33,706 bases of DNA from assembly GCA_017430965.1 (NCBI GenBank), contig JAFRLX010000111.1, forward strand, positions 1 through 33,706. Direction: 5' to 3'. Numbering within the stretch: position 1 is the first letter of the stretch; each line of letters starts with the position of its first letter. Below are positions 691-20,300 of this stretch, piece after piece. The notes under the pieces were generated by a model. It saw only the letters and a list, made by a program, of their open reading frames with translations. It was not told the DNA's origin and searched no databases. The position numbers and the translations under genes were made by a program. The stretch is from Clostridia bacterium. GTDB taxonomy: Bacteria; Bacillota; Clostridia; Oscillospirales; Acutalibacteraceae.

Positions 691-737
691 GTTTCGCCTC
701 AAAAACTTTAAAATGTTCATTTAAACTATATATAGTA

Positions 738-766
738 ATCATAACATAGATAAAACACAAATACAA
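738..766 (-). promoter_or_regulatory. Sigma-A-type promoter for the truncated LRR gene
   Basis: On the minus strand, TTGTAT (766-761) and TATGAT (743-738) are separated by exactly 17 bases and lie about 50 bases upstream of the ATG at 690. Both hexamers are near consensus and the surroundings are AT-rich. Confidence 0.6.
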
Positions 767-769
767 CAT

Positions 770-801
770 AAGAAAAAAGGATTTGGCACACCAAATCCTT
801 T
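770..801 (-). terminator. Intrinsic terminator after the 440-residue LRR gene
   Basis: A perfect 11-bp stem (776-786 with 791-801) has a 4-base loop and is followed on the minus strand by a run of T (778-773). It lies 66 bases past the stop of the gene at 867-2189, so it ends that transcript before the next LRR gene starts. Confidence 0.85.
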
Positions 802-866
802 CATGCAAAAGAAATGCAGCGATTCAATTCATCAATCAAAGCGCCGCATTTCACAGTTGAGAAAAT

Positions 867-2189
867 TTACTTTGTCTTTACTCTTGCCGCAGCACTCCAA
901 GCCGAAGCATACACCTTGCCGCCAACAACTTTGTAGGTTCTGATGCGCGCATAGTACAGCCTTCCGGCAGCGAGGTTTTTGACAAGCGCCGCATTTTTGG
1001 TTGCCCCTTTAACCGTAAGCACCTTGGCACCGCTAAACTTAGCATTGGTCGCATACTGAATTTGATAGCCATGGGTTTGCACGGCTTGCTTAGCCCACTT
1101 AGCGGCAAAGCACCTTCTGCCGGCAGTTAACCCGGCAAGCTTAGTCGGTCTGGGTAAAATGTTGAAATACAGTGTTTTTGCACCGCTGTAAGCGCCTTTA
1201 AATTTCACCACTGCTTTGGCTGTGCCCACATACCTGTTGGCAGCATAAGCAACGGTGTAGTAAGCGCTTGAAATGACAGCACCGTTGGTATCGGCTGCCA
1301 CCACTACCGGCTTTTTGAACGTACCGTCATAGTGAAAAGCGGTTGTTTTGAGCTTCACCGCCTTGACAACGGGGTGCAGATACCGAAACACATAATAAGT
1401 GGAATTGGTCGCGCAGTAGCTTTGCACACTGCCGCCATCCGCATAAATCACCACTTTCGTATCTCTACGGTTGCGGAAAACAGAGAAATTTTCCAAATAA
1501 CAATTTTTATTAAACACCTTCGCCGTTTTAATATAATCGGAAGAAAACGCGCCCCTGCCGATGCTTGTGACATTTGCCGGAACCGCAACATTTACCAGAT
1601 AGTTTCTGATAAATGCACCTTCACCGATTGTTGTAACACCGGCGCCGATATTTACTGCGCTCAGCGCATTATCACTAAAGGCGAAGGAACCGATAGTTTT
1701 CACACTGTCGGGAATCGTAATGGAAGTGAGAGCACAGTTGGTAAACGCACTTTCACCGATACTTTGAAGATTATAAGGGAAAGTCACGCTCTGCAAGCTT
1801 TCGCAGTAGAAAAAGGCATAATCTCCGATAGATGTCACTGATTGGGGTAACACCAAGTCCTCTATTTTCATTCCCTTGCAGGCATTTTTCCCTATCGTTG
1901 TAAGCGTATCGGGCAATTCCAAAACCTTGGCATTCAAAGCAATCAGGGAATTATCACCGAGCACGCGCACCGGATGTCCCTCAATGTAAGCAGGCACCAC
2001 AACCCTTTCGAGGTTGCAGGTATTTTGAATCGTGCCTGTTATTTTTGCATCGCCATTGTCTAAAACAACGGCATTATAGCTGCCTGTGTCGGAATAATAA
2101 TAGATTTTTTGTTCCGCATGCGCCAATACCGGAACGGCGCAGCTAAGCGCCAAAATCACTGCTAATAATAAACTGATGCTTCTTTTCAT
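867..2189 (-). CDS. BspA-like LRR secreted protein with Fn3-like C-terminus
   Basis: This 440-residue protein starts with a signal peptide (MKRSISLLLAVILALSCAVPVLAHA). A short beta region follows, then BspA/LRR_5 repeats from about residue 75 to 235 (TTIGKNACKG, VTSIGDYAFFYCESL, LQSIGESAFTNCAL, VKTIGSFAFSDNAL, VTTIGEGAF, VTSIGRGAFSSDYI). After these is a bacterial surface repeat module (about 275-345, 'Y.V.Y..N..VGTAKAVVKFKGAYSG' style). The last stretch is a fibronectin-III-like domain (about 346-440, with GYQIQYATNAKFSG and YYARIRTYKVVGGK). There is no LPXTG motif or C-terminal membrane segment, so it is probably released or held non-covalently. The start has GGAGTGAG 8 bases upstream. It follows the caspase-like gene by 88 bases and has its own strong terminator. 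A role in the phospho-signalling system is possible but not shown. Confidence 0.9.
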   Translation of the reverse strand: MKRSISLLLAVILALSCAVPVLAHAEQKIYYYSDTGSYNAVVLDNGDAKITGTIQNTCNLERVVVPAYIEGHPVRVLGDNSLIALNAKVLELPDTLTTIGKNACKGMKIEDLVLPQSVTSIGDYAFFYCESLQSVTFPYNLQSIGESAFTNCALTSITIPDSVKTIGSFAFSDNALSAVNIGAGVTTIGEGAFIRNYLVNVAVPANVTSIGRGAFSSDYIKTAKVFNKNCYLENFSVFRNRRDTKVVIYADGGSVQSYCATNSTYYVFRYLHPVVKAVKLKTTAFHYDGTFKKPVVVAADTNGAVISSAYYTVAYAANRYVGTAKAVVKFKGAYSGAKTLYFNILPRPTKLAGLTAGRRCFAAKWAKQAVQTHGYQIQYATNAKFSGAKVLTVKGATKNAALVKNLAAGRLYYARIRTYKVVGGKVYASAWSAAARVKTK

Positions 2190-2240
2190 TATTTCGTCTC
2201 ACTCCATTTCATTTTTTGTCATAATAAAATAATATCATTA

Positions 2241-2262
2241 GAAAACACACGCTTTGGCATGT
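2241..2262 (-). terminator. Weak terminator-like hairpin after the caspase-like gene
   Basis: A 6-bp stem containing one G-T pair (2247-2252 with 2257-2262) has a 4-base loop and is followed by GTTTTC on the minus strand. The stem is short and the T-run is imperfect, so read-through into the LRR gene at 2189 is likely. Confidence 0.3.
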
Positions 2263-2277
2263 TCTCTTTTTCATTGG

Positions 2278-4542
2278 TTAAATGCCGTCCATCGGGCAGT
2301 CACTATCCACAAGCTTCACCGCTTTAGAGCCGACATCCATAGAGTAAGCGGTAAAGTGCGCGCCGTTTTTCGAAGTTTTACCATAGCAAACATGGTTGCC
2401 GGTAATGTAGTAAATATAACTGGCATCCGCCTTGCAGAAAGTGGTTGCTTTGTAATCGCCGCCGGAAAGGTCGATTTTAAGAATATTGCCGCTTTTGATG
2501 TAGTACAGGCTGCTGCCGTCCAAATAGCAGGTACTTTCCACCTCGGCTATTTCCTTGTAAGTGTCCCCGACCCGGGTGATGATAATATAGCGGTTCTGAT
2601 AATACAGCTCAATGAATTCCTTACCGTGATAGGTGTATACCTGCATCACATTCCCACCGGCAAAGGGAGAAGTCTCCACAGTGAAATCAAAATCGCTGTT
2701 ATACACCTTACCTCCATCCGCACGCCAGGATTCCACCGATTCACCATTGGCAGAGTATACCCGCTCGCCATCGTATTCACACACATACTCGTTGGCATTG
2801 CCGGCAACGCTTGCACCGCTGTGGTCATACACCGTGACCGCATCATATTGCATTTCGCCGGTGTTATAGAGTTTCACGCCGATACCTTCTTCATAGAACT
2901 CCACAATATTCGCCTTGCCGTACGCCGGTTCGGACAGGGAAACAATTTTTTTCGTGCTGCCGCTTGCGGCATTAAATTGGTAAATACCAATCGGCTTATA
3001 ATACTTATCGGCGAAATACACATTGCTGCCGTCGCCGCGCATGGGCATAAAGCCGCCTGCATAATCCGAGGCATAGGTTTTGATGTACTTTTCTATGTTG
3101 TTGTAGTCGACATTGGAAGCGGTTGTCGTTTCGTTTTTCTCGGCTACTAATTTCAAATTATCGTCACCAAACACTATTACCTGAGCATAGTGTTTCTTGC
3201 CTTTTTCAACCACGGGTTCCGGAGACAAATCACCGTGTTTTTTCTGCGCGGTCCGTAATGCATCGAAGGCTGTTTGCCCTTTTGCCAAGGCAAAGCAAAC
3301 ACTCTTCATCATACTAATGTTATAATCTGTGTAAATCGTGTCACTGTTGGCATAAATTGTTTTTGCCCCCTTCGCCAACAATACATCTGTAAATTCATTG
3401 GTATATCCGGAATAGCAGGTAGCTAAATAAATCACAGCGCCATTCAAATCACCTTTTTTGAAATAATCATCAAAAAAACCTGCTTTGAAACCGGAATAAC
3501 CGCCTTCAATCGCAACAATATTATTGTTATTACACCATTTTTTATATCTGATGCTGCTTTTTAAAGTCTTATACTTTAAACCGGTCTTAATGATATATCC
3601 CGTTTTCTTGGTATATTCGCCGTGACCGTGCCAAAGGATTACCTTGGCGCCCTTCATTTTATCAAAGCCATCGAGATCTACTTCCTCATCATCATAATTA
3701 TCCTTAAATGCAAATCCCATTTTCTTTGATATTTCCTTTGCGGATTCATCCGGTTCCGGAAGCGCTTTGCCAAGACTATAGAAAGGCTGGTAGGTAGCAA
3801 TGCGGCTCTCGCTGCCGCCACTGTCAATGTTTTCAAATCGCGGGGAATAGACAAATTCGTCCCCTTCCTTGAGCTTGCAATACACACTGAGAGTTTCTTC
3901 TTCCAAATTTGCTTCGGTCGCCTTGCCGCTTTTGACAAGGCTGTCGGCATACTCATAGGCAGCTTGTATCAATTCATCTGCCTTAGCATGGTCGGCATAT
4001 CCATCCTTTAAATACGGCTTTTCGACCTCTTCAAATCCGCTCACCACATCATCCAGATAAACATAGCTTTCGCAGACACCATCCGGCGTCGGATTAAGTC
4101 CGGTCGGTCTTTTGTAGCTAAAGGCAAATATCAGCGCAATAATGATACCGATTAAGACAACTCCGCCGCCGATGGAAAGCCCTAAAATGAGCCCTAATTT
4201 GCTGTTACCGGAGCTCTGCCCTGCTCCGGCAGTCGCCGGCAGCGGCGCCATGCTCACAGTCGGCACCGGTTGCTGCACCGGAAAATCCGGTTTTGCATAA
4301 GGGTTCTGCCCTGCTTGCGGCTTTGCGGCAGGCTTGGCATAAGGATTCGCAGAAGCACCCGGTTTTTTGTAAGGATTGGCATACGGATTCTTGGGCACCG
4401 ACTTCAGCGTTGCATCGTGCGCTTGCTGTTTTGCCGCCGCAGGCTTTGTTGCCCCTGCGGAAGGGTGTTTAAATGAATTTCCGCAATGCACACAATTCGG
4501 CAAATTGGAAGGTGTCTCTTTTCCGCACTGATTACACTTCAT
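2278..4542 (-). CDS. Zinc-ribbon, membrane-tethered protein with extracytoplasmic caspase-like (CHAT/C14-type) domain
   Basis: Numbering is from ATG at 4542 (754 residues). GTG at 4551 is also in frame, but no ribosome site has workable spacing to it, and family members usually begin MKC. Order of parts: a zinc ribbon (C3, C6, C17, C20); a Pro/Ala/Lys linker with repeated NPYAKP-type units (about 50-85); one membrane segment (about 116-142); then an outer region. About residues 270-460 look like a clan CD caspase fold. A beta strand ends in WHGHG (H305/H307), and a later strand ends in LATCYSG (C376). These are the expected His and Cys of CHAT/caspase/gingipain-type peptidases. The C-terminal part (about 470-754) has recurring short beta units with YY, as in DUF5050/beta-propeller regions. 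The gene lies 24 bases after the ABC permease (15 from the GTG), so it is probably co-expressed with the exporter. Substrate unknown; loss of activity cannot be excluded. Confidence 0.8.
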   Translation of the reverse strand: MKCNQCGKETPSNLPNCVHCGNSFKHPSAGATKPAAAKQQAHDATLKSVPKNPYANPYKKPGASANPYAKPAAKPQAGQNPYAKPDFPVQQPVPTVSMAPLPATAGAGQSSGNSKLGLILGLSIGGGVVLIGIIIALIFAFSYKRPTGLNPTPDGVCESYVYLDDVVSGFEEVEKPYLKDGYADHAKADELIQAAYEYADSLVKSGKATEANLEEETLSVYCKLKEGDEFVYSPRFENIDSGGSESRIATYQPFYSLGKALPEPDESAKEISKKMGFAFKDNYDDEEVDLDGFDKMKGAKVILWHGHGEYTKKTGYIIKTGLKYKTLKSSIRYKKWCNNNNIVAIEGGYSGFKAGFFDDYFKKGDLNGAVIYLATCYSGYTNEFTDVLLAKGAKTIYANSDTIYTDYNISMMKSVCFALAKGQTAFDALRTAQKKHGDLSPEPVVEKGKKHYAQVIVFGDDNLKLVAEKNETTTASNVDYNNIEKYIKTYASDYAGGFMPMRGDGSNVYFADKYYKPIGIYQFNAASGSTKKIVSLSEPAYGKANIVEFYEEGIGVKLYNTGEMQYDAVTVYDHSGASVAGNANEYVCEYDGERVYSANGESVESWRADGGKVYNSDFDFTVETSPFAGGNVMQVYTYHGKEFIELYYQNRYIIITRVGDTYKEIAEVESTCYLDGSSLYYIKSGNILKIDLSGGDYKATTFCKADASYIYYITGNHVCYGKTSKNGAHFTAYSMDVGSKAVKLVDSDCPMDGI

Positions 4543-4566
4543 TCTATTCACACTTTCTATCTTGTT

Positions 4567-6609
4567 TTATCGTTTGTCATTCTTAACTCTGATAAGCAGG
4601 AAACGGCACAATACCGAACACACAAGAATGAACACCAACAGTACTGCCCAAATGAACAGCAGGTTGCCGAGTGTGCTCTCATACAGCGATTTGGCAGTCG
4701 CCATACTCGAACCCAAAGTAAGCTGCATAGAGGGGTTGCTGATTAAGAATTTCGGCTGTGCATCGTTGATACCGGTCGATGCGGCAAGAGCGGCGATGCC
4801 CCACTTGTTCACCATCAGGTTGGATAATACATCCATCACACCCTTCATTTCAAAGAGCACACCGGAGAAAACAATCTGCACAATGAGCACAATCGGAATA
4901 AAGGTGTTGGCGGTGGAAGAATTCTTCACTAAGGAAGAAATGACCAGCGCCATGGTATCTGCCGCAAAGGCGAGCAGGAACAGCGTGATATAATACTCAA
5001 TCCAAATGCTCGTAAACACACCCTTTGAAGGCAAATCCTTATTCATCACAAAGAGAGCAAAAATGCCTACAACCACAATCATTTGCACGGCGCAAACCGC
5101 AGATTGCACCACCAGCTTGGATACCACATAAGAGCCGAGCCTGAGGTTGGTCATATACTCTCTTTTGAGAATATTTCTCTCTTTACAAATCTCTTGAATG
5201 GAGTTACAAATGCCGACAAACACTGCCACGCACGCAAGCATAAACAAGCCGGTTTGCGTGCCGTTGAAAACAGCTAACTGACCATCCTTTTTAAAGCTGT
5301 GGTCATCATCCAAATCTTTATCTTTTTCCGCGCTGTAGTCGGCAGTATCTTCAACGCGCTTTTGCCACTCATCGTCGTGGTAGGCGTTGTTTTGAATATC
5401 GTAAGCCGTGCGGATGCCCTTAAACGGCACCAGGAAAGATGCCTTGCGCATCAAATCCTCTTCCTCCAAGCGGTAAGCGATATTTTTAAAATCTTGGTTT
5501 TGCACGGCAGCGAGATTGTCGCTGTCACCGCAATAGAAGGCATTTTTAAAGTGTTCGCTCTCATCGCCTTCAAAGCTGCCGGCAATCATCCCGGCGCTGT
5601 CTTTCGATTGCGCTTCCACTCCGCCGATAAAATAGGCGGCACTTAAGCGCGCTTCACCCAGCTGCCCTACCAAGCCGCCGACATGGCTGTCGCCGGAAAT
5701 GGTGCAGCCAACGGCATAGTGGTTGTAAATCTCCACATTGCCGCTGTTTGCCGCGCCGACAATGGCACCGACCTGATTATGACCTTCCACAAGGGATTTT
5801 TTCACGGTACAGCCGCTGATGCGCGCACTGTTTCCAACCTCTGCCGCAATGGCAGCCGCATTGTCGCCATCGGCAGATATTTCAGCATCCTGCAAGGCAA
5901 GGTTTTTGACAATGCCGTTGTGGAAGCAGGTCATGTCTTTATCCTCTCCCAGCACATTGATGCTTTCGGTTGTATCGTTGCTCTCTTCACTGCTCACGCT
6001 TGCAAAGAGTGCCACATTTTCATCCCCGTCAATGTTCAGGTTTTTGATGATATGGGCGTTACCGTCAAACGTGCCGGTAAAGGGATTTTCTTTGGTACCG
6101 ATAGGCGCCATACTATGTTGGTCAAAATCCATATCACACTGCAGAATATAGTTGTAGTGCAGGTAATCCTGCAACTCATCATATTCCGCCACCTTGCTCA
6201 GTGCCGCCAGCTGCGAAGGTTCCGTGATGAGCAAAAAGTCCTCATCACCGATTTTTTGGAAAACGGCAGGAAGCTTCTGAGCGATATTGGTCATATCAAT
6301 TTCTTCCCCATCCCACTTTTTCTCTTCGCTGCTTTTGACTTCAATTTCCTTGGTGCCGCCGTTTGCCTTGTCCTTTTCTTCCTGCACCACCTGCTGCCAC
6401 ACCAAAACCGGGTAGCCGTCATTGATTTGATGGTCGTCTTTGGTCTTGACGCTGTACATATCCGGTACCGCTACAAGACACACAATCAGGATAGTTAAAA
6501 GCGGAATAAACAAGGTTAATAAAAGGTTTTGTTTATCGTTAAAAAAGATATGAAAATACCTGTCAATTAATACAAATGCCTGTCTGAAAAAAGAAGGTTT
6601 TTTATTCAT
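4567..6609 (-). CDS. ABC-2 type permease with large GLUG-type extracytoplasmic insertion
   Basis: This 680-residue protein has one membrane segment near the N-terminus (about 28-48). A hydrophilic outer region of about 400 residues follows, and then a C-terminal block of about five membrane segments (about 455-670). The C-terminal block has the ABCG/ABC2_membrane signature region around EICKERNILKREYMTNL. The outer loop contains the element that usually precedes GLUG repeats (GTFDGNAHIIKNLNI) and then GLUG-like units (VGAIVGAANSGN, VGGLVGQLGEA, AGMIAGSF). GLUG repeats are otherwise seen in secreted adhesin-like proteins. The start overlaps the ATPase stop by four bases (ATGA), so the two are translationally coupled and form one exporter. 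Transported substrate unknown. The insertion may bind cell wall or the exported partner. Confidence 0.88.
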   Translation of the reverse strand: MNKKPSFFRQAFVLIDRYFHIFFNDKQNLLLTLFIPLLTILIVCLVAVPDMYSVKTKDDHQINDGYPVLVWQQVVQEEKDKANGGTKEIEVKSSEEKKWDGEEIDMTNIAQKLPAVFQKIGDEDFLLITEPSQLAALSKVAEYDELQDYLHYNYILQCDMDFDQHSMAPIGTKENPFTGTFDGNAHIIKNLNIDGDENVALFASVSSEESNDTTESINVLGEDKDMTCFHNGIVKNLALQDAEISADGDNAAAIAAEVGNSARISGCTVKKSLVEGHNQVGAIVGAANSGNVEIYNHYAVGCTISGDSHVGGLVGQLGEARLSAAYFIGGVEAQSKDSAGMIAGSFEGDESEHFKNAFYCGDSDNLAAVQNQDFKNIAYRLEEEDLMRKASFLVPFKGIRTAYDIQNNAYHDDEWQKRVEDTADYSAEKDKDLDDDHSFKKDGQLAVFNGTQTGLFMLACVAVFVGICNSIQEICKERNILKREYMTNLRLGSYVVSKLVVQSAVCAVQMIVVVGIFALFVMNKDLPSKGVFTSIWIEYYITLFLLAFAADTMALVISSLVKNSSTANTFIPIVLIVQIVFSGVLFEMKGVMDVLSNLMVNKWGIAALAASTGINDAQPKFLISNPSMQLTLGSSMATAKSLYESTLGNLLFIWAVLLVFILVCSVLCRFLLIRVKNDKR

Positions 6610-8219
6610 CGCACAGCCCTCCTGTTCGCTTGATTGTTCAGCGCATTATAGCGATTGACATAACCGTCAATATCCTGCGAAATCTTCTCGTAGGCATCTG
6701 CCAAATTGGTGACATTAAAGAATTTTTTTGCTTGCTCCGGGCTGCCGTAGAAGCACAGCTTACCGCCCGGTGCCAGGAAGATTACCTTGTCAAACAATTG
6801 AATGTTCTGCAGGGTATGGGTGATTACAATAACCGTCTTGCCTTTTTCATCGGAAAGGCGCCTGAGCTGGTGCATCAGGTTTGTTTCCGCTTCGGGGTCC
6901 AAACCGGAGGTCGGTTCATCCAGGAAGAACAGGCTCGGGTCGGAAATCAATTCCACCGCAATGGAAGCACGCTTGCGCTGACCACCGGAAAGCTTCTTAA
7001 TAAAGGTATCCTTCTGCGCAGTCAAATCTACCATATCCATGACATCGGCAACGCGCTCGGCAAGCTCCTGCTTGGTAATATCCTTAGGCAGCCGCAACTT
7101 ACCGGTGTAAGTGAGCATCGCTTCTAAGGTTAAATCATCATGCACAATGTCTTGCTGCGGCACATAGCCGATGGTTGATTTAATCGTACTGTAGTTTTTG
7201 TATAACTCCGTGCCGTTGATATATACCGTGCCTTCGGTAGCGGGTTCAAAACCGTTAATGCAATTCATAAAGGTGGTTTTACCGGCACCGGAGCCGCCCA
7301 AAATCGCCACCAGTTCACCGGGGCGAATGGCTAAGGAAACATGGCTTAAAATGTATTTTTTGTTGCCGCCGTTAATCCCGGTGCCCTGTTTGCAGGGAAC
7401 GATTCTGGAAATGTCATTGACAACCACTTCCACACCGCCGCCGGAATAGTTCTTCTTTTTGAGCTGCTGCTCGGCGCGGCGCACTATCATCTCCTGTTTC
7501 TTAAGCTCCGGTTTAGAATAGGGATTGCCTCTTTCATCCTTTGTCACGGCATTGAGCGTTAAGGTGGTGACATAGCTTTGGCGCTCGCGGTTCGGCACGC
7601 CGAAAATCACAGCTTTACCGATGCGGATAATCCTGGTATTACCGACTCTGATGACATCATTATTCTTAAACTCGTGCGTTCCCTTAATCGGCGCGCCGTT
7701 TAAGTAGGTACCGTTGACACTTCTCAAATCGGTAATGGTCACTGTTCCCTGGCGATTGTTGATCACCGCATGGTTTCTGGAAACAGCGACTGTAGGCACC
7801 TGAATATCGCTCTCGGCACCTCTGCCGATGGTAATTTGCGATTTCTTCTCAAGGTGCAGGAATTTCCACTGCAGGTGAGAGGTCGCGCAAAATGCCAGAT
7901 ATATTTTTCCGGTTTGCCCCAACAAAAAAACATCGCCATCGTTCAATCCGACCGGTGCCGACATTTTCTGCCCCGGGGCAACCGGGACTCTTTTTCCTTT
8001 AAAATAGGTTCCGTTTGTGCTGGCAAGGTCATGGTAAAAATACCTGCCGTTTCGGTACACAATTAAGCCGTGATTGCTTGAAACCGTTGGCGAGTTGAGC
8101 TTCACTGTTGCATTGGAGCCATGCCTGCCGATTGTTGTTTGGTAATCTTCTAAATCATAAGTAGAAACCGGTTGCCCGGTTTCAATGACGACCAATTGTG
8201 CAGGATTTTTAATTGACAT
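6606..8219 (-). CDS. FHA-FHA-ABC transporter ATPase (Rv1747-like, split from its permease)
   Basis: This 537-residue cytoplasmic protein has FHA domain 1 at about 10-105 (GR 31-32, SSNH 47-50, STNG 67-70). FHA domain 2 is at about 115-205 (GRG 132-134, SRNH 147-150, SVNG 167-170). A basic linker leads to an ABCG-type ATPase with Walker A GGSGAGKT (308-315), signature LSGGQ (410-414), Walker B FFLDE (431-435) and the switch His in ITHTL (H468). Both FHA domains keep the Arg, Ser, His and Asn used to read phosphothreonine. In mycobacteria the FHA-FHA-ABC exporter Rv1747 is a single chain with its permease and is phosphorylated by the neighbouring kinase PknF. Here the permease is a separate, overlapping gene, and a kinase and a PP2C sit just upstream. 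AGGAGA lies 8 bases before the ATG. Confidence 0.93.
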   Translation of the reverse strand: MSIKNPAQLVVIETGQPVSTYDLEDYQTTIGRHGSNATVKLNSPTVSSNHGLIVYRNGRYFYHDLASTNGTYFKGKRVPVAPGQKMSAPVGLNDGDVFLLGQTGKIYLAFCATSHLQWKFLHLEKKSQITIGRGAESDIQVPTVAVSRNHAVINNRQGTVTITDLRSVNGTYLNGAPIKGTHEFKNNDVIRVGNTRIIRIGKAVIFGVPNRERQSYVTTLTLNAVTKDERGNPYSKPELKKQEMIVRRAEQQLKKKNYSGGGVEVVVNDISRIVPCKQGTGINGGNKKYILSHVSLAIRPGELVAILGGSGAGKTTFMNCINGFEPATEGTVYINGTELYKNYSTIKSTIGYVPQQDIVHDDLTLEAMLTYTGKLRLPKDITKQELAERVADVMDMVDLTAQKDTFIKKLSGGQRKRASIAVELISDPSLFFLDEPTSGLDPEAETNLMHQLRRLSDEKGKTVIVITHTLQNIQLFDKVIFLAPGGKLCFYGSPEQAKKFFNVTNLADAYEKISQDIDGYVNRYNALNNQANRRAVR

Positions 8220-8250
8220 TTTCTTTCTCCTAATCTAACTGTTTTGCCTA

Positions 8251-9054
8251 CTAATGTATTTGAATGACAATCACTGTAATGTTATCCATTCCTCCGTTGT
8301 CAAGCGCTGCTTGAACAAGTGCATTGGCAGTATCCGGCAATGCTTTATGCTGCGCAAGAACTGCCGCTATTTGCGCATCGCTCACCATGTCATACAGCCC
8401 ATCGCTGCACAGCAGGTAAAGATCCCCTTTTTGTGCTTGGAAGTTCCGAAATTCCGGTTCGATGAGCATTTGCGCCGTATCGATGCCCAAATACTGCGTG
8501 AGTGCATGACTCTCTCTTGCGTGCGCTGCCTGCTGTGCGCTCATCACCCCGGCGCGCACCATCAGCTGCGCCTGTGTATGGTCGGTTGTTAATTGACTGA
8601 GTTTGTTGTCAACATAGCAATATGCCCTGCTGTCGCCCAAATTGGCAATGCTCACCGCTCCGTTCTGAAAGCCGAAAAGCACAATAGTGGAGCCCATTTT
8701 AGCGCGGCGTTTCTCCTGTTCGTCACAAACCCGCCGGTTCGCTTCAAATATCACTTCTTGTGTTTGCGCCGGCGAAAGCTGTGCTCGAAGCAAGTGTTTT
8801 TCCCTGTTGCGAATCGTTTCCACAGCGCGCTTGGAAGCAAGCTCTCCCGCAAAGGCGCCGCCCATCCCGTCGCAAACACAGCAAACAAATTGCGGCGAGG
8901 GTGCAATGCCGTGGGAAAACACGGTTTTCATATTCACAATTTTGGAAGCGAGATAAAAATTGTCTTCATTCTTTTCTCGCAGTTTGCCGACATTGGAAAC
9001 GGCAAATGCAGAAGCTTTTAATGCTTTGCTTGCCACTGCTTTTCTTTGTCTCAA
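8251..9054 (-). CDS. PP2C-family protein Ser/Thr phosphatase
   Basis: This soluble metal-dependent phosphatase has the standard PPM motifs: NEDN near residue 29-32, VCDGMGGAFAGELAS (about 60-74) with the metal-binding Asp and Gly, LGDSRAY, LCSDGLYDMV and the C-terminal GGMDNITVIVI. It is about the normal core length, with only a short basic N-terminus, so it should act in the cytosol. Start choice: TTG at 9063 sits one base after GAGGAG, too close for use. TTG at 9054 lies 10 bases after the same GAGGAG and is preferred; there is no ATG in frame upstream. The gene lies between the kinase (ends 9105) and the FHA-ABC ATPase (starts 8219). Its likely job is to reverse phosphorylation by that kinase, possibly on the exporter. 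Confidence 0.9.
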   Translation of the reverse strand: MRQRKAVASKALKASAFAVSNVGKLREKNEDNFYLASKIVNMKTVFSHGIAPSPQFVCCVCDGMGGAFAGELASKRAVETIRNREKHLLRAQLSPAQTQEVIFEANRRVCDEQEKRRAKMGSTIVLFGFQNGAVSIANLGDSRAYCYVDNKLSQLTTDHTQAQLMVRAGVMSAQQAAHARESHALTQYLGIDTAQMLIEPEFRNFQAQKGDLYLLCSDGLYDMVSDAQIAAVLAQHKALPDTANALVQAALDNGGMDNITVIVIQIH

Positions 9055-9104
9055 TTTTCTCAAACTCCTCGTTGCAATACCTGTTTCGGTTCTACCCCAC
9101 TCTC

Positions 9105-10574
9105 TTAGAATTCCTCATCCCAGTCGGAACCCGGCGATGGAGCCTGTGTGGTTTGAGGGGGTGTATAGGATGTGGTTTGCGGCGGTGTATATTCGGTTTC
9201 CGGAGGAGTATAGGATGTGGTTTGCGGCGTATAATCCTCGGTGGTTGTCGTCTTCTTTGTGGTCTGCTTTTTGGTGGTTTTCTTTGTGGTTTGTTTTTTG
9301 GTGGTTTTCTTTGTAGTTGCCTTTTTGGTGGTCGGCTTTTTGGTCGTGGTAACAGTGGTTGTCGGTTTCGTGGTGAGTTGCCGCTTTTTGGATTGAGAAA
9401 CGCTGATAAAGCCGACAATCAAGCCAATGACCACCACTGCCGCAGCACAGGCGGCAATAATGATGTAGAGCCGCTTTTTCTCTTCAGCAATCGGCTTTTT
9501 TGCCGGTGCCGGTTTCACCGCACCGGAAGAAGCCGTGCGCACGGCTGCCCTATCCGACTTCGCTGCCGCTGCAGCAGTCGGGCTGTTGCTTAAATGTACC
9601 GTTTTCCCCCGGTTTTCTGCCGCGAAAGTCATATTGCCTTTTGAGGCGTGGTAGCTGATAATTCTGTCGGCATTAATCAGGGCGCTTTTAAACTCCCTGG
9701 CATTTTTGTAGCGCCTTTTCGGGTCAAATTCACAGGCTCTGCACACCACGGCATTGAGTTCGGGCTCAACCCCTTTGATATAGGGGATATTTTCACCGCT
9801 CATTCGCTTTTGAAAAGCAACTTCACTGTCGGTATACTTAATCTGCTCCGGATACAGCGGTAAAAACGGCACACGGTTGCAGTTGAGCAAGCGGTAAATC
9901 ACCATGCCCAGTGAATAAATATCGACCGCGCCGTCATAGTTATCCCCGCGGTATACCTCCGGCGCCATATAATCCAAGGTACCCTTTCTGGAAAGTCCGG
10001 ATTGGGTTTTGTCGAGCTTTCTGGCAATGCCGAAATCTCCCAATTTGTAATCCCCGTTGGAAGAAACAAAGATGTTGCCGGGCTTGATATCGCGGTGGAT
10101 AATATTCTTGCGCTCACAAACTTCCAGCGCATTGCACATGTCAATTCCCAACTTAATGACAGCTTTTTTTGACATAAAGCGCGCCTTGTTATCAAAGCTC
10201 AGATATGTATCGAGCGGTGTGAGGTATTCCATGCGAATGTAAATGGTATACCCCATCCCGTCGGCATTCGGCTCAATCAGGTGGTCATTGTAACCGACAA
10301 TATTGGTGTTACCCTGCAGGCTTGCCATTACCTCGATTTCTTTAACAAAATCGCGCGCAAGCTGAGAATAGTACTCTGTAATGCTTTCGGTTGTCATCCC
10401 CTCGCTGTACAGGCGCTTTTTTTCCGCGCTGTCTTGCGGAATGTGAATCACCTTCATCGCACTGTAATACGCAGAGCCGAATTCTTCTTTTTTTATTTTA
10501 TAAACATCACCGAAAGAACCGCTTCCGAGATGTTCAACAATTTTCCAATTGCCAAAGTATGTTCTGTTTTCCAT
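9105..10574 (-). CDS. Transmembrane Ser/Thr protein kinase with Thr/Lys-rich outer tail
   Basis: Numbering is from ATG at 10574, which has GGAG 5 bases upstream; GTG at 10580 overlaps that ribosome site and is rejected. The Hanks-type kinase domain (about 8-305) has glycine loop GSGSFGDVY, catalytic Lys K41, HRDIKPGN (160-167), DFG (180-182) and APE (204-206). An Ala-rich linker with RGKTVHL near 322-328 leads to one membrane segment (about 369-393). Outside the cell is a low-complexity tail of TTKK/KKTTKKQ-type repeats, then TPPQTTSY repeats and an acidic end. There are no PASTA domains. The repeats give the tail a wall-spanning, strongly basic and possibly glycosylated character. It is first gene of the exporter operon, after a 430-base spacer. 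It is the natural partner of the PP2C and FHA-ABC genes that follow. Confidence 0.92.
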   Translation of the reverse strand: MENRTYFGNWKIVEHLGSGSFGDVYKIKKEEFGSAYYSAMKVIHIPQDSAEKKRLYSEGMTTESITEYYSQLARDFVKEIEVMASLQGNTNIVGYNDHLIEPNADGMGYTIYIRMEYLTPLDTYLSFDNKARFMSKKAVIKLGIDMCNALEVCERKNIIHRDIKPGNIFVSSNGDYKLGDFGIARKLDKTQSGLSRKGTLDYMAPEVYRGDNYDGAVDIYSLGMVIYRLLNCNRVPFLPLYPEQIKYTDSEVAFQKRMSGENIPYIKGVEPELNAVVCRACEFDPKRRYKNAREFKSALINADRIISYHASKGNMTFAAENRGKTVHLSNSPTAAAAAKSDRAAVRTASSGAVKPAPAKKPIAEEKKRLYIIIAACAAAVVVIGLIVGFISVSQSKKRQLTTKPTTTVTTTKKPTTKKATTKKTTKKQTTKKTTKKQTTKKTTTTEDYTPQTTSYTPPETEYTPPQTTSYTPPQTTQAPSPGSDWDEEF

Positions 10575-11004
10575 TTTCACTCCGAATCAAAAGGCCACCG
10601 TTGGCGGTGGAGCCAAGTTTGAAAGGTTTTTATGTGATGTATAAAACGGGAAGAAGTACAAAAGCGCTGAAAAAGGTTGAATTATTGCTGTCATTCTGAG
10701 GTTCTTCGGAACCGAAGAATCTCGTGGTTTTTCACTGCAGTGATTATCGACGAGATCCTTCGTCGCTACGCTCCTCAGGATGACAGAAAAGAATGCAAGA
10801 TGACAATGATTCTTTCTGGCACTTTTTCAGTGGTTTAGGAAGTATCTCCCTCCCGATTGTTTTCTGTTTTAAATCTATGGTTAAAACGCGAAAGGCTGTA
10901 ACAATCGCCTTTGCGCCTTACCGCGCGCTTCCCGGCAGCCTCGGCTGCGGCACGCTGTTCTCCCGTGAGCTTTTTCGGCTCACAATAAAAGCGAAGCGGA
11001 TAAA
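10575..11004. other. Non-coding spacer with several stem-loops
   Basis: This 430-base gap separates the two FHA operons. I see no convincing gene in it. It holds a CCACCG/CGGTGG hairpin (10595-10610) just upstream of the kinase, the REP/MITE-like inverted repeat at 10688-10786, a GCAGC-CTCG-GCTGC hairpin near 10937-10950, and a GTGAGC/GCTCAC hairpin near 10964-10982. None is followed by a clear T-run on the minus strand, so a classical terminator for the gene ending at 11005 is not evident. A promoter for the kinase operon should lie here, but I could not pick one confidently. Confidence 0.6.
10688..10786. repeat. REP/MITE-like imperfect inverted repeat
   Basis: Arms of about 35 bases face each other. 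The left arm begins CTGTCATTCTGAGG and ends GAAGAATCTCG (to 10724). The right arm is the reverse complement of GTCATCCTGAGG...GAAGGATCTCG (10751-10786). The centre contains the palindrome CACTGCAGTG (10733-10742). Small intergenic palindromes with this GTCATYCTGAGG...GAAGRATCTCG core are familiar in many bacterial genomes and are thought to be non-autonomous repeats. That identification is from memory, not a search. Confidence 0.75.
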
Positions 11005-13717: not shown

Positions 13718-14347
13718 TTAATCTTTCTTTTCTTCCAATTTTTCCCAAGTAAACTTATCGGAACAGCAAGGAATGAACATCAATTTCGTTGCACCAACGG
13801 TAATAATGTCATTGACCTTAATTTGCTTGGACTCCAGCACAACTTCATCATTGAGATAAGAAAGCTCTTTAGAATCGCCGGACTGAATCAAATAAATATT
13901 GCTCTTCGGCTCATACACGATGACCGCATGCTTCTCACGGGAAACGGAAGAGTCACCGCTAAGCTTGATATCCATAGAAGCGCTTCTGCCGATAAAGTTC
14001 CTGCCGGTAACGAGCTTGAAGTCCTCACCGAAATGGTTGCCTTCAATGCAAACCAACCAACCGACTACAGGATTGGTGCCAATGGCATCCTCATAGTAAC
14101 CGACTGTTTTCTGCTCATCGCTCTCCACATTACCTGCTGTTGTAGCGAAGGTGCTGTTTTCCACTACAGTTCCGGTGAAGCCGGCATTACCGGTATCCAA
14201 AACTGTGGTGCTGAAAACATCATTCACATCTGTGTCGAGTGTTGTGGTAAACTCTTGATCACCATTTGCTTGTGCGCAATGCGGGCAATACGGATACTCA
14301 TCAGCATCATAATAATGACCGTTATTGCACTGAATTAAGTTTTTCAT
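13718..14347 (-). CDS. Zinc-ribbon FHA protein (CxxGH-type ribbon)
   Basis: This 209-residue soluble protein has an N-terminal ribbon of the CxxGH...CxxC type (C7, H11, C21, C24). A Thr-rich linker of about 60 residues follows, with repeated TTTLDT and STTVLDT segments and then KTVGYYED. The C-terminal FHA domain (about 95-195) has GRNFIGRS, SREKH and an atypical last loop where the usual Asn-Gly is not obvious. It is paralogous to the gene at 18637-19209; both have ribbon, KT(V/I)G motif and GWL before the FHA. The start overlaps the PP2C stop by four bases (ATGA), with AGGAGG 10 bases upstream. The Thr-rich linker is a plausible target for the operon kinases and a ligand for other FHA domains. 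Confidence 0.9.
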   Translation of the reverse strand: MKNLIQCNNGHYYDADEYPYCPHCAQANGDQEFTTTLDTDVNDVFSTTVLDTGNAGFTGTVVENSTFATTAGNVESDEQKTVGYYEDAIGTNPVVGWLVCIEGNHFGEDFKLVTGRNFIGRSASMDIKLSGDSSVSREKHAVIVYEPKSNIYLIQSGDSKELSYLNDEVVLESKQIKVNDIITVGATKLMFIPCCSDKFTWEKLEEKKD

Positions 14348-15483
14348 AATTCATTTTCCTCCTTATTATTTGTGTGAATTATTTTTATAACAACCACAGA
14401 GGTGTTATCCTGACCTCTGTAATTTTTATTGTTTGCCGCTTGTGTTAAGCGGTACGCCGCCATCGACATATCATTTTCGGCGGATTCGATAATTTCCAGG
14501 ATTTCCTGCTCATTCAACAAGCGATACAGCCCATCCGAACAAAGCACAATAATATCCTCATCCATTAATTCAATCGGCTTCACATTGGTTTCCACAAGCT
14601 TGAGCTCATCAATTCCGCAGAAGCTGATTAAAGCTTCCTTTTTCGGGTGAGAAAGCGCTTCCTGCTCGGTAATCTCACCGGCTGCCACCATTCCCATTAA
14701 GCGGGAAAGGTAGTTTTGGTCATGGGTGAGCTGGAAGGATTTCCCGCCTCTGAAAAAGTAAATTCTGGAGTCGCCGACATTGACAAAGTTAAACTCATCA
14801 CCATTGACTTCCACGGCAATCAATGTGGCGCCGGTTTTGGCATGGTTGCCTGCGGCATCGCTAATATCCAAAATCGCTTCATTGATTTCATTTGCCTTTT
14901 CCACAAAATAGGCGCGGTCTACTTTTTTGTCGCTGTTCCACATTTCACTGTAATAAGCAGCGCTTAAAGAGGCAACCGCGGTTTTGCTGGCGACATCACC
15001 GGAAGCCAAACCGCCCATGCCGTCGCTGACAATGCACAAAAAGCGGGGTTTCCCCTCTCGCATGGTTTTGGAAACATCCGGCACAAACACACTGTCCTGC
15101 TGTGACTTTCTTTTACCGATAACGGAAGAAACACCAATGCTAAACGGCAGATTTTCCGCAATGACATTTTCGGTATTAACCTCCAGAAGCTCGGGGCCTG
15201 CACTCACTTCATTGATGACACTCTGCGCCACAGGTTCTTCATCGGTATCTTCATCAATCAGCAGCGTTCTTTCATAAGAAATGTCATAAGGTGAGCGGAA
15301 AACCTGCTCTTCGGGTTGCACCTGTTCTGCCGGCGCCACCTGCTCTACAGGCGGTGCAGCGACAACAGTCTCCTCCTCACCAACGGGCTGTACCTGTGCG
15401 GCGGCAGCCTCCGGCGCGGTGTCCATATACTCACTGTATGCACTGCGTTCTTTCTTCTTTGCTTTTTTCTCTTTTTTACTCAT
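14344..15483 (-). CDS. PP2C-family phosphatase with long disordered N-terminal extension
   Basis: This 379-residue protein has a very basic start (MSKKEKKAKKKERS) and then an Ala/Pro/Gln/Glu-rich tail to about residue 115. The tail contains EEETVVAA and ERTLLIDEDTDEE. The PP2C catalytic domain (about 118-375) has SQQD, SDGMGGLASGDVAS, VGDSRIY, LCSDGLYRLL and GQDNTSVVVI, all expected metal and structural motifs. There is no membrane segment. The ERTLLIDED segment is the same type of Thr-hydrophobic-acidic motif seen in the proteins at 33058-33706 and 30198-30608. The tail may therefore be phosphorylated and bound by an FHA partner. It overlaps both neighbours by four bases (ATGA), so kinase, phosphatase and FHA protein are translated as a coupled block. 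Confidence 0.92.
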   Translation of the reverse strand: MSKKEKKAKKKERSAYSEYMDTAPEAAAAQVQPVGEEETVVAAPPVEQVAPAEQVQPEEQVFRSPYDISYERTLLIDEDTDEEPVAQSVINEVSAGPELLEVNTENVIAENLPFSIGVSSVIGKRKSQQDSVFVPDVSKTMREGKPRFLCIVSDGMGGLASGDVASKTAVASLSAAYYSEMWNSDKKVDRAYFVEKANEINEAILDISDAAGNHAKTGATLIAVEVNGDEFNFVNVGDSRIYFFRGGKSFQLTHDQNYLSRLMGMVAAGEITEQEALSHPKKEALISFCGIDELKLVETNVKPIELMDEDIIVLCSDGLYRLLNEQEILEIIESAENDMSMAAYRLTQAANNKNYRGQDNTSVVVIKIIHTNNKEENEL

Positions 15484-16901
15484 TGTCTATACACCATCAA
15501 AGTTATAATATTGTTGTATTGCGCCAGGAAGAAGGACTCTCCCGGTCTGAATACTTCTTTTTGATTTTTTACCAACTGCTGACCGCTCATGCGAAATGTT
15601 CCGTTGGAGGAAACATCTGTCACATAAAACAAGTTGGTATCCATATTGTATGTAATGTAACAATGCCGCCTGCTGATATGCGTATCGTTATACGGCACAA
15701 AATTACAATCATTGGAGAACCTGCCAATCACAATCGTGTTACCCGGTTGGAAGGTGATAGACTGATTGATTTGCGAATTTTTCGCCACCACGTTGCACAC
15801 CAAGTTCGATTGATACGGAGGTCTTGCGGGAGTGACAGAAGGTTTCGGCGGAGTCGGGGGTGACAACGGTTTTGTTGTCGGCTTCGATACCGGCGGCTTC
15901 TTCACTCTCGGGTCGCCGCCAATCATGGTCCAGCCCGCTCGATCCAAATCATTCAAAAACTCGGTACAGTTTTGGGTTCTGTACTTGTAGTCCAGCTGCA
16001 TTGCCTTTTCAACGGCTTTGGACATGTTGATGGAAACATTGCCCACCACTTCGCACAGCGGTTTGACCATATCGTTTTCCATCCTCTTTTTTGCATCCTG
16101 CACCGAAATGCCGGAAACGATATAGTAGAGCGTTGCTGCCAAGGCATACACATCTGTCCAAGGTCCCTGATTGCCCTTGCTGCTGTACTGCTCGGGCGGT
16201 GCGAAACCGGGTTTTAAGAATACCGAATTGTCCTTTTCCGCTGTTTCCACATAGCTTTTAGCGGCGCCGAAATCAATTAATTTAACTTCTTCAACATTCT
16301 TTTTGTTGACAATGAAAATGTTTTCCGGGCTGATATCTCTGTGCAGAATACCTTCCTTATGCACCTTTTCCAAAATCTTGGCGATGTCATAAATAATATC
16401 CCGCGCTTTGGCAATATCAATTCTGCCGCCCTTTTGGCTCATGGCAGCTTTCAGATTGTGACCATCCAAAAACTCCATAATCAGGTATACGGTGTTGTTT
16501 TCCGTAAAATGCTGAATAATCTCAACGATATTGCGCTCATCTCTGAACTTATATAAGGTTTTGATTTCGGCAATATAATTGGTCTTGCCGTTTTCAAAAA
16601 TGCGCTTTGCTCTGGTCGGCTCCTCGTTGGGAACAATGCTCAGTTTTTCTCTGTGCGCATATTCACTGGGCATATACTCTTTGACAGCAACGATTCTGTC
16701 ATTAAAAGTGTCATACGCTTTATATGTAATTCCGAAACCGCCTTGCCCGATAGAGCAACCGATGACAAACTGGTCATTCAGCATTGTGCCGAAAGGCAAG
16801 CGCCCTTCTTTTTGCTTCTGTGAAGTATCATACCCGCATTTGGGACAAATATTGATACCGGGACTTGTTTTTTCAAAACAATTGGGACAAAAATCTAACA
16901 T
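15480..16901 (-). CDS. Zinc-ribbon Ser/Thr kinase with C-terminal FHA domain
   Basis: This 473-residue protein has no membrane segment. A zinc ribbon (C5, C8, C19, C22) is followed by a kinase domain (about 42-325) with glycine loop GQGGFGITY, catalytic Lys K74, HRDISPEN (187-194), DFG (210-212) and PPE (235-237). The Lys usual in HRDxKPxN is Ser at 191; this variant occurs in other bacterial kinases and does not by itself mean inactivity. A Pro-rich linker (330-362) leads to an FHA domain (about 368-470; GR 393-394, SRRH 410-413, SSNG 431-434). Kinase and FHA in one chain suggest binding to an already phosphorylated partner. It starts 14 bases after the VWA-FHA gene and ends by overlapping the PP2C gene. 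Confidence 0.93.
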   Translation of the reverse strand: MLDFCPNCFEKTSPGINICPKCGYDTSQKQKEGRLPFGTMLNDQFVIGCSIGQGGFGITYKAYDTFNDRIVAVKEYMPSEYAHREKLSIVPNEEPTRAKRIFENGKTNYIAEIKTLYKFRDERNIVEIIQHFTENNTVYLIMEFLDGHNLKAAMSQKGGRIDIAKARDIIYDIAKILEKVHKEGILHRDISPENIFIVNKKNVEEVKLIDFGAAKSYVETAEKDNSVFLKPGFAPPEQYSSKGNQGPWTDVYALAATLYYIVSGISVQDAKKRMENDMVKPLCEVVGNVSINMSKAVEKAMQLDYKYRTQNCTEFLNDLDRAGWTMIGGDPRVKKPPVSKPTTKPLSPPTPPKPSVTPARPPYQSNLVCNVVAKNSQINQSITFQPGNTIVIGRFSNDCNFVPYNDTHISRRHCYITYNMDTNLFYVTDVSSNGTFRMSGQQLVKNQKEVFRPGESFFLAQYNNIITLMVYRQ

Positions 16902-16915
16902 TTCCTCGATGACTC

Positions 16916-18643
16916 CTAAAACTCTATCTTAATGGTGGTTAATCCTGCGCGGATAACATCACCCGATTTTAACTTTTGCCTGCCCACAACGCGAATGCCG
17001 TTTAAATAGGTTCCGTTGGTGGTGTTTAAATCCTGTATCATAAAGATACCGTTAATGTTTTCAACCGCAAAATGCTGGCGGGAAAGCTTTCTGTCGTCGG
17101 TGAACACTTCGCAAACGCTGCTCCTGCCGAAGATAAAGGAGCGGTCAACCTTAAGCGAAATCTTGTTGGGAGGATAGTTGCCCGTTTGCATGGTCAAGCG
17201 CACCGGCACACCGGCAGGCGGTGCCTGCACATTCTGCACATGGTGCCGCTCTTCGACGGTTTCCTGCACTTGGGTTTCAAAGATTTCTTTGATGCGCGTG
17301 ACATTCTTTTTCTTTTTCAGATTCAAAAGAATCAGATAGAACGCCAGCAACACCAAACCGACCGCCACAACAATAATGACAATGGGAAGCAGCTTTAAAA
17401 GCGGGCTCTTTAAACCGTCAAGCTTTTGCGCAATCGGTGTCACCGCATTGCCGTTTGCATCTGTAATATTGACAAAGCTGATGGAGTAGTCGCCGCTGTA
17501 AAGGTCATTATCAAAACGCAAAATGTATTCGCGGTTCTTCTTGCTTTCGGTAACGGAATTCGGTGTAATTTCCTTATTCCCGCGCTGCACACTGTAATTG
17601 CCTTGAAGGTTGGCACCTTCGACAGGTCTGTCATAACGCACGGTGATTTGGTTGCGGTCAAAGGTTCTGATGACGGCGGTCACTTCACCGCTCTCGTTCT
17701 TAATATTATCTAAGCGAAAATCAATCGCATCAATTTTACTGCCTTTGCTATCCTTCACGGTTAAGCGCTGAATGCCGCTGGAGCGCGTGTAGGATGTTTC
17801 AAAAGTGATAATGGTGTTGTTTTGCGCCGTATTGTACAAATCGCTCAGCTTATCGCTTTCTTCTGCCGCACTGACAATGCCGGCATACCCGCCGCTCTTG
17901 GCACAAGTGGTGTTGATGTCTTTGATGTTGTCCGAATTGGAAGCTTCGCTTAAAACAATTGCATAGAGCGGAAGCTCGTGATATTGGTAAACATCGTTGA
18001 CACTGCTGCCCGAGGAGCCTGTACTGAAATCACCTGCCTGGTCGGTGACCAGCACCACTCTGATGGCGTTGTACTCCGTGCGCTTTTCAATGAGTGCATC
18101 AAACACATCCAACAGCGCATCATTTAAGGAAGTTCCCTCTTCATCCGCGCCGAGGGCTTTGATTTTGCTGCCGAGCTCTGAAGCGGCATCGGCAGAGTCG
18201 GCAATGCCTAAATCGTTCAAATTGTTTTTGCCGAAGGAATATGCACAAAAGGCGTGGTTGCTGTTTGCTTTATCATAGATTAAGGAAGCCGTTTCGGCTT
18301 TGATAGATTCAAATGCACCTGCGGGTGTGCCGTCGGAAGAATCGACCATTGAGGTTGAATTGTCAATCACAAAGCAGGTAAGAGAAGTCGTTTCATCGAC
18401 CTTTTGCGAGGAGAGGCGCTCTAACGCTTCCTGGTCGCCGCCGATATAAGCACTTATGTCATCCGCTTTCACCGCTGAACTGACTTCCACATTGATTTCC
18501 GGAAGCGCAGCGCTGACGCGCACGATTTTCTCTGTTTCGGGACCGGCAACAGCACCGAAGGCGCCTACACAGCTGAGTGCCGCAAAGAGGAACACAAGCA
18601 CAAGAGCGAGGGATTGTTTTACAAAGGTTTTTCTCTTTACCAT
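16916..18643 (-). CDS. Membrane receptor: extracytoplasmic VWA domain, TM, cytoplasmic FHA
   Basis: This 575-residue protein has a signal peptide (about 1-33) and a von Willebrand A domain (about 86-280). The VWA has a metal-ion site DNSTS (94-98), a Thr in GTSLNDAL (T171) and an Asp in LVTDQ (D201). A beta-sandwich-like segment (about 285-400) with DRNQITVRYDRPVEGANL is typical of Ig/SbsA-like modules. One membrane segment (about 416-441) and a basic stop-transfer lead to a coiled acidic linker. The cytoplasmic FHA domain (about 481-572) has GR 506-507, SRQH 521-524 and TTNG 541-544. The VWA faces outward and the phosphothreonine reader inward. AAGGAG lies 8 bases before the ATG, and the start overlaps the previous stop by 7 bases. 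It probably binds a surface ligand, for example the giant Ig protein, and couples it to kinase status. Confidence 0.93.
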   Translation of the reverse strand: MVKRKTFVKQSLALVLVFLFAALSCVGAFGAVAGPETEKIVRVSAALPEINVEVSSAVKADDISAYIGGDQEALERLSSQKVDETTSLTCFVIDNSTSMVDSSDGTPAGAFESIKAETASLIYDKANSNHAFCAYSFGKNNLNDLGIADSADAASELGSKIKALGADEEGTSLNDALLDVFDALIEKRTEYNAIRVVLVTDQAGDFSTGSSGSSVNDVYQYHELPLYAIVLSEASNSDNIKDINTTCAKSGGYAGIVSAAEESDKLSDLYNTAQNNTIITFETSYTRSSGIQRLTVKDSKGSKIDAIDFRLDNIKNESGEVTAVIRTFDRNQITVRYDRPVEGANLQGNYSVQRGNKEITPNSVTESKKNREYILRFDNDLYSGDYSISFVNITDANGNAVTPIAQKLDGLKSPLLKLLPIVIIVVAVGLVLLAFYLILLNLKKKKNVTRIKEIFETQVQETVEERHHVQNVQAPPAGVPVRLTMQTGNYPPNKISLKVDRSFIFGRSSVCEVFTDDRKLSRQHFAVENINGIFMIQDLNTTNGTYLNGIRVVGRQKLKSGDVIRAGLTTIKIEF

Positions 18644-19560: not shown

Positions 19561-19596
19561 AAAAAACTGCCTTCTTCAAAATAAAAAGGCAGTTTT
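19561..19596 (-). terminator. First intrinsic terminator, overlapping the LytTR stop codon
   Basis: An 11-bp stem (19563-19573 with 19586-19596) has a 12-base loop and a T-run on the minus strand. The upstream arm overlaps the last codon of the LytTR gene. Together with the terminator at 19502 it insulates the next operon. Confidence 0.85.
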
Positions 19597-20290: not shown

Positions 20291-20300
20291 ATCATTTTTG

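Follow-up and report, generated by a model that had tools for sequence, protein, structure and literature searches.

Introduction

Many of the described CHAT and metacaspase proteins act in the cytoplasm. However, exported clan CD proteases (families C11 and C25) and predicted exported metacaspases are already known. For instance, two reports describe clostripain and the gingipains as secreted (PMC3482391, PMC12445089), the first of these reports described clan CD domains in surface proteins in 2012, and the predictions in a survey of 671 prokaryotic metacaspases, also from 2012, assign 98 of them to a membrane class and another 30 to an extracellular one (PMC3501461). Consequently, it is too strong to say, as a first-pass annotation of the DNA considered here did, that the known proteins of this kind are cytoplasmic and that a position outside the membrane would be a new setting. 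That DNA is contig JAFRLX010000111.1 of a Clostridia bacterium (Acutalibacteraceae; assembly GCA_017430965.1), which was analysed over its entire 33,706 nucleotides and is called the window below, so that whatever is said to be missing from the window applies to this contig alone. It encodes a protein with a caspase-like domain, a lone membrane helix and, just upstream, the genes of an exporter of the FHA-ABC type (Table 1).

With moderate confidence, we read this protein as an anchored envelope cysteine endopeptidase (clan CD, C25/CHAT branch) that is made together with a phospho-controlled exporter. Its family has a His/Cys dyad that is conserved and export signals throughout; the gene is spaced from those of the exporter as in an operon, and FHA or phospho-signalling machines recur beside a minority of the relatives.

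Among the described exporters, the closest is mycobacterial Rv1747/PknF, which the accounts dealing with this pair present as an FHA-ABC exporter run with a Ser/Thr kinase, as in the window. By contrast with that pair, the ATPase and the permease of the window are split, there is an additional insert in the permease, and the set is extended by a PP2C phosphatase and the caspase-like protein. The control parts of the window are also of the same kinds as those of the type VII variants T7SSc-j (kinase, PPM phosphatase and FHA) in a 2024 survey that describes kinases, phosphatases and FHA parts, and in whose main text “caspase” does not occur and “protease” occurs twice (PMC11217815). Unlike those variants, the window holds neither EssC nor WXG100 genes, whereas in other loci EssC-like and WXG100 genes are followed by a lipoprotein of the family (see below). 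The Bacillota caspase-like family, its FHA-transmembrane (TM) fusion and its type VII placement look new; in the open-access literature that was searched, no paper couples this family with type VII or FHA systems.

A conserved His/Cys dyad

The gene is real, and of its two possible starts, a GTG at 4551 (757 amino acids, aa) and an in-frame ATG at 4542 (754 aa), the ATG is the more likely one, as well as the one that reproduces both the limits and the C376 of the first-pass annotation. Residues are numbered from the GTG below, unless otherwise said; the ATG-based number is obtained by subtracting 3 (H310 = H307, C379 = C376).

The dyad had been proposed from the motifs WHGHG and LATCYSG, and the alignment of homologs that was then run bears it out. 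The conserved His is the second one of WHGHG, and it is separated by 69 residues from the Cys of ATCYSG (residues 377-382). In an alignment of 19 rows the invariant columns were H310, G311, C379 and G395, and when the window and 29 relatives were aligned (30 rows; mean pairwise identity 0.236) only H310, G311 and C379 remained so, while the other eight His or Cys within the stretch 145-475 vary. The chance of finding the two named columns among 3 invariant ones of 331 is about 5e-5, a figure that disregards the slow change of His and Cys in general. As WHGH was part of a pattern by which 12 new loci were partly found, these are subject to selection bias for the His, and the unbiased rows for this residue are those found by whole-protein and profile searches (18 independent ones, in the 19-row alignment); the Cys was absent from every search pattern used for the 12 loci. 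Some loci needed separate treatment. A partial match with stops (L034) was excluded from the first alignment, although its HGG and SCYSG motifs fit the dyad by eye. L055, a truncated near copy of L054, was excluded from the second alignment, the tree and the 30-row count; for L125, whose reading frame is split over two open reading frames (ORFs), the second ORF alone was used; and L122, L123, L132 and L133 are duplicates of L024, L026, L051 and L028.

Judging by this pattern of conservation, the domain is likely to be catalytically active. It might instead be a pseudo-enzyme that keeps the fold and the dyad but serves mainly in binding or adhesion, as certain bacterial systems often contain caspase-like domains that are inactive (PMC7159879); we regard this as very improbable, given that it is precisely the dyad columns that are strictly conserved while the rest of the domain drifts.

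Distribution of the family

No relative was found in a first scan of contigs with the whole window protein. A whole-protein search then matched 7 of 60 genomes, the window's own included, and the six other matches fell in the protease domain in two cases and only in the N- or C-terminal parts in four; in the same search the protease domain went unmatched in all 6 other genomes of the same genus. With the domain alone, 13 of 394 genomes of the order were matched, and with a 13-row profile 7 of 398 genomes of the phylum (own genome included in both counts). A pattern scan of named genomes yielded 16 loci, 4 of them previously found, from Clostridia, Clostridiales, Oscillospiraceae, Ruminococcus, Peptococcaceae and Erysipelotrichaceae; a gut site (caecum, rectum, omasum or faeces) is named for 5 of the 16. 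Altogether, 32 distinct family loci were compared, namely the window, 18 of the first set, L034 and the 12 new ones. Two queries against plasmids gave no match. A weak match to the domain (27% identity over 40% of the query, E 1e-5) occurs in MT835937.1 (L223:3878-4336), an unverified and unannotated faecal record named “Bacteriophage sp.”.

Relationship to other clan CD peptidases

The domain very probably belongs to clan CD (the caspase superfamily), and by score it is nearest to C25, the gingipain family, and then to CHAT. The assignment is supported by the 19-row consensus, which scores best against these two families in Pfam: C25 comes first (2.7e-5, 24.0 bits, cut-off 23) and CHAT second (0.0015, 18.5 bits), both matches spanning the Cys side and not the His. 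Additionally, one relative, L030, exceeds the C25 cut-off by itself (2.3e-5, 24.2 bits). In profile-profile comparisons (hhalign), C14 gave P 4e-4 with His aligned on His, and a CHAT set of two sequences gave P 1.3e-3 with Cys on Cys, while C11 gave 0.29 and the controls (PP2C, STK, VWA and ABC) 0.43-0.58; with 31 rows, the values were 4e-4 for C14, 6e-3 for CHAT, 0.41 for C11 and 0.22-0.60 for the controls. The comparison loci used were 7 of 9 for C14, 6 of 9 for C11 and 2 of 2 for CHAT.

Several results weigh against this assignment. The 31-row consensus keeps the same top two families in the same order, but with both under their cut-offs (C25 5.9e-4, 19.6 bits; CHAT 0.019). When members were scanned at E up to 1, C25 appeared in 2 of 13 and CHAT in 1 of 13. 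The window protein alone matches no clan CD family above its Pfam cut-off, and the sole Pfam match of its domain is CHAT at E 0.26 (11.1 bits, cut-off 24). The hhalign probabilities are low (34% for C14 and 18% for CHAT), and the C14 Cys does not meet C379. Finally, sequence searches of the PDB returned no chain below E 0.26, the single clan CD chain listed being a CHAT protein at E 0.32.

The first-pass label, CHAT/C14-type, is thus retained as far as the clan is concerned, with C25 as the nearest family, CHAT in second place and C14 aligning at the His and not at the Cys. With the gingipains (C25, PF01364) the family shares a His-Gly...Cys dyad and export, and C25 is the top Pfam match of two consensus sequences and of L030; unlike them, its members have membrane, lipid or S-layer anchoring and other flanking domains, and the His-to-Cys distance of 69 residues in the window protein is a further difference. 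PF01364, with its 23-bit cut-off, was not matched by the window protein or its domain in the Pfam scan, and it scored above that cut-off in none of 119 genomes of the phylum. The CHAT (PF12770) and C14 (PF00656) proteins would share the caspase superfamily with it, and match weakly near the Cys (CHAT) or the His (C14), but these scores lie below cut-off and the family is exported; PF00656 has no Pfam match in the window protein, its domain or the 19-row consensus. Clostripain (C11, PF03415) is likewise an exported clan CD peptidase of Clostridia, but membership in C11 was rejected, as there was no Pfam match and neither profile comparison showed one (P 0.29 and 0.41, above). An NCBIfam scan left the domain unnamed, which points to a putative surface protease family without a name in the Pfam and NCBIfam models used. 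A defence role like that of cytoplasmic CHAT proteins and metacaspases was also rejected, since no PADLOC model matched any of 6 family proteins and the domain is exported.

Predicted placement outside the membrane

The first-pass annotation deduced from a zinc ribbon followed by a membrane helix that the domain lies outside, and the motif, the hydropathy, the charges and the export signals of the family agree with it. The zinc ribbon (ZnR) is assigned by its motif, because the Pfam match to DZR reaches no better than E 0.33, and a low-complexity stretch separates it from the helix. The predicted orientation is N-in/C-out, which fits the excess of K/R before the helix (14 K/R and 3 D/E in residues 1-118) and of D/E after it (1 K/R and 7 D/E in residues 149-178); K147-R148, at the outer edge of the helix, speak against it. 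All 8 relatives examined carry a higher net charge ahead of the helix than behind it.

The placement appears to hold for the whole family, because the relatives have signal peptides, lipoboxes, S-layer domains or a zinc ribbon with a helix. By hydropathy, a hydrophobic segment precedes the domain in 18 of the 19 proteins of the first set, the exception being the truncated ORF L055, and in 8 of 12 further ones; the four that have none (L128, L129, L130 and L136) carry lipoprotein signals and L034 a signal peptide, both read by eye. The zinc-ribbon motif and helix are found together in eight proteins (window, L024, L028, L029, L032, L051, L131 and L137), while FHA-FHA-helix precedes the domain in L124. 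SLH domains score above the Pfam threshold in L052 and L127, and the outer modules of the family comprise vWA, CarboxypepD_reg, SLH and Big_2.

These varied outer modules would also suit an outside-in sensor, whose outer protease would cleave a surface partner or itself once the C-terminal module binds a ligand, with the cytoplasmic zinc ribbon signalling to the zinc-ribbon kinases of the locus. As the sensor would lead one to expect, the same genome has a second ZnR-TM N-terminus, on G000:C125, whose neighbour by eye encodes a ZnR-kinase, but such an N-terminus is also present on members that do not have the neighbours sought within the stretches examined (e.g., L024, L029, L032, L051, L131 and L137), and we judge such a sensor improbable.

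Linkage to FHA, kinase and type VII machines

In the window, the genes are transcribed from the (-) strand in the order kinase, PP2C, FHA-FHA-ABC ATPase, permease and caspase-like protein. The first two gaps measure 41 and 31 bp, the ATPase and permease genes overlap by 4 bp, and the caspase-like gene begins 15 bp (GTG) or 24 bp (ATG) after the end of the permease gene, a spacing that would be compatible with co-transcription. In the exporter itself, one gene joins the FHA domains to the ABC ATPase and a separate one encodes the ABC-2 permease, and the kinase gene lies beside them. The tie to an FHA-gated exporter made in the first-pass annotation therefore stands as regards this string of genes with FHA-ABC, PP2C and kinase; it was seen only in the window, and what recurs is a tie to FHA and phospho-signalling in a wider sense.

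That the string was seen in the window alone counts against our reading, as do some further results. At E 1e-60, 4 of 118 relatives (own included) turned out to have an FHA-ABC gene, and a permease search pointed to further genomes with one; the caspase-like protein was absent from all 8 other FHA-ABC neighbourhoods of 14-20 kb (L082, L083, L084 and L116-L120); a conserved coupling to the FHA-ABC exporter was rejected on this basis. The ZnR-FHA gene at 13718-14347 was matched in 34 of the order's 394 genomes (own included), and every one of 34 stretches (5-20 kb; L189-L222) taken from the 33 other genomes has ZnR-FHA and PP2C, with a kinase by profile in 30, but in none of them is there a caspase-like protein. 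From the side of the family, 25 of the 32 loci have no FHA, kinase, PP2C, EssC or WXG100 gene within the stretch examined, although several of these stretches end at contig ends, and L137, the nearest relative of the window in the tree, is one of those without such neighbours.

All these counts would be expected if an ordinary surface peptidase gene had come to lie, uncoupled, downstream of an FHA-ABC operon. We nonetheless consider a chance neighbourhood unlikely, in view of the 15-bp gap on one strand, the physical fusion of FHA in L124, and the order STK1-PP2C1-FHA part-protease that L124 and the window have in common although the tree does not pair their domains as sisters.

The seven loci with an FHA, STK, PP2C, EssC or WXG100 gene nearby are the window, L124, L128, L129, L130, L135 and L028, the last of which has one kinase, 6 kb off. 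L124 (JAFUQS010000007.1, from roe deer rectum) has at 356-10295 a kinase/phosphatase/FHA operon that ends in a caspase-like chain. Its genes are, in order, ZnR-FHA, two FHA proteins, STK, PP2C, FHA and a chain of 1162 aa, in which two FHA domains (2.2e-29) and a helix are followed by the protease domain and CarboxypepD_reg repeats. The ZnR-FHA (7e-65), the STK (1e-66, to 9105-10580) and the PP2C (4e-46, to 8251-9063) match genes of the window, while the top match of this genome to the window's FHA-ABC is an ordinary one (2.2e-28, 243-aa frame). The fusion would have phosphopeptide-binding domains and a caspase-like protease on opposite sides of one membrane helix.

In L128 (1655-9272), L129 (1717-9275) and L130 (1244-9233), an EssC-like gene and two or three WXG100-like genes are followed by a lipoprotein member of the family. 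The FHA and FtsK/SpoIIIE domains of the EssC-like proteins were recognized by Pfam in L128 and L130 and by profile in L129. L135 (6782-9206) has two WXG100-like genes, the closer one 27 bp upstream, with no EssC within the stretch, and L136, of the same clade as L128-L130, has neither EssC nor WXG100. Four of seven WXG100 candidates pass in Pfam, the other three being under the 27.3-bit cut-off (20.3, 23.1 and 27.1), and an 84-aa ORF in L130 has no Pfam match. As the domains of L128 and L130 are 34% identical, this arrangement has outlived much sequence change, and it is possible that the lipoprotein members are the protease part of these type VII loci.

In the tree of 30 rows, the window joins L137 (support 97/96), L124 stands with L026 and L125 (85/90, not starred), and L128-L130, L135 and L136 form one group (100/100). 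The window is thus placed apart from L124 and from L128-L130, which suggests that the family met FHA-type machines three separate times, rather than inheriting one linkage. Against this, L137 is flagged as a long, unsure branch and several deeper forks are weak.

A possible role for the protease

The protein in the window would span the membrane once, with its N-terminus inside, and its outer domain would act as a cysteine endopeptidase; it would be made together with the FHA-ABC exporter, PP2C and kinase. Most likely, it would trim or mature a protein on the outer side of the membrane, be it exported material, a neighbouring surface protein or itself, and proteolysis would then go in step with the running of the phospho-controlled machine. 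Lipids are the better-known substrates of FHA-ABC exporters of this type, so that the protease is at least as likely to process itself or trim surface proteins as to act on a putative protein cargo. Exported cargo and a giant Ig protein had been put forward as substrates; nothing was found in support of either, and the giant Ig protein was rejected as a shown substrate.

More tentatively, and with less than even confidence, this extracytoplasmic family, found in Clostridia and related bacteria of which several come from animal guts, may have been recruited on three or more occasions to serve phospho-controlled envelope machines as their outer maturation protease, the machines being an FHA-ABC exporter (window), an FHA-TM-protease fusion in a kinase/phosphatase operon (L124) and type VII loci (L128-L130). 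In the last case it would stand in the place of mycosin, which has its role in the type VII systems of mycobacteria. If true, some FHA/kinase-controlled export systems of Bacillota would own a dedicated outer protease, and phosphorylation inside the cell would be linked to proteolysis outside; the copies adjacent to WXG100 genes hint that some type VII systems have a maturation protease.

Other features of the window and its relatives

Table 1. Features of the window, with the evidence for each (residues from the GTG)
Feature	Position	Strand	Evidence
Caspase-like protein gene	2278..4551	(-)	ORF listing and inspection of the start region
N-terminal zinc ribbon CxxC-x10-CxxC, residues 6-23	4483..4536	(-)	Pattern
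Lone membrane helix, residues 117-149	4105..4203	(-)	Hydropathy and charge counts
Putative caspase-like domain (clan CD, C25/CHAT-like), residues 160-475	3127..4074	(-)	Family profile, dyad conservation, consensus Pfam matches
Candidate catalytic His, H310 (H307 from ATG), in WHGHG 307-311	3622..3624	(-)	His in 30/30 rows
Candidate nucleophile, C379 (C376 from ATG), in LATCYSG	3415..3417	(-)	Cys in 30/30 rows
C-terminal module, residues 476-757	2281..3126	(-)	Sequence comparison
ABC-2 permease with large insert (residues ~122-361)	4567..6609	(-)	Pfam PF01061 9e-16
FHA-FHA-ABC ATPase	6606..8219	(-)	Pfam FHA 1.1e-34, ABC_tran 7e-31
PP2C phosphatase	8251..9063	(-)	Pfam 2.5e-14
Ser/Thr kinase (STK1), hydrophobic segment, Thr-rich tail	9105..10580	(-)	Pfam Pkinase 1.6e-41
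BspA-type LRR surface protein, next gene downstream	867..2189	(-)	Pfam LRR_5 1.1e-76
ZnR-FHA / PP2C / ZnR-STK-FHA cassette	13718..16901	(-)	Pfam and sequence reading
vWA-TM-FHA protein	16916..18643	(-)	Pfam FHA 9.9e-16; VWA_2 3.6e-5, under cut-off

Downstream of the caspase-like gene, BspA-type LRR genes follow after 88 and 146 bp. Farther upstream, also on the (-) strand, lie ZnR-FHA, PP2C, ZnR-STK-FHA, vWA-TM-FHA and LytTR genes, the gene of a 3254-aa protein, and a second STK/PP2C/FHA set. The 3254-aa protein (20364-30128) has, by eye, a signal peptide, long repeats and a C-terminal hydrophobic segment, and the piece 20364-23000, which encodes its last 878 residues, matches no Pfam family at 0.01. 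The LytTR regulator (19595-20335) lies near the ZnR-FHA cassette, as it does in 2 of the 34 cassette stretches (L206:2139-2579 and L207:5643-6362). WXG100-like genes occur in L196, L200 and L201, the last of which also has a piece of EssC, and the ZnR-FHA / PP2C / ZnR-STK cassette perhaps consists of control genes of type VII variants. As regards the exporter, the insert of the permease resembles parts of large ORFs from many of the order's genomes, and 5 of 8 FHA-ABC relatives examined are single ORFs of 772-800 aa.

The ends of the protein are also found apart from its domain of ~320 aa. The N-terminus of G000:C125 (L039:5387-6562) is 51% identical to residues 3-144 of the window protein. 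The C-terminal module recurs in a lipoprotein-like protein and in an RCC1-repeat protein of the same genus (L037:2460-4688; 37% identity), where six RCC1 stretches replace the protease domain, so that the two proteins are related by a domain swap.

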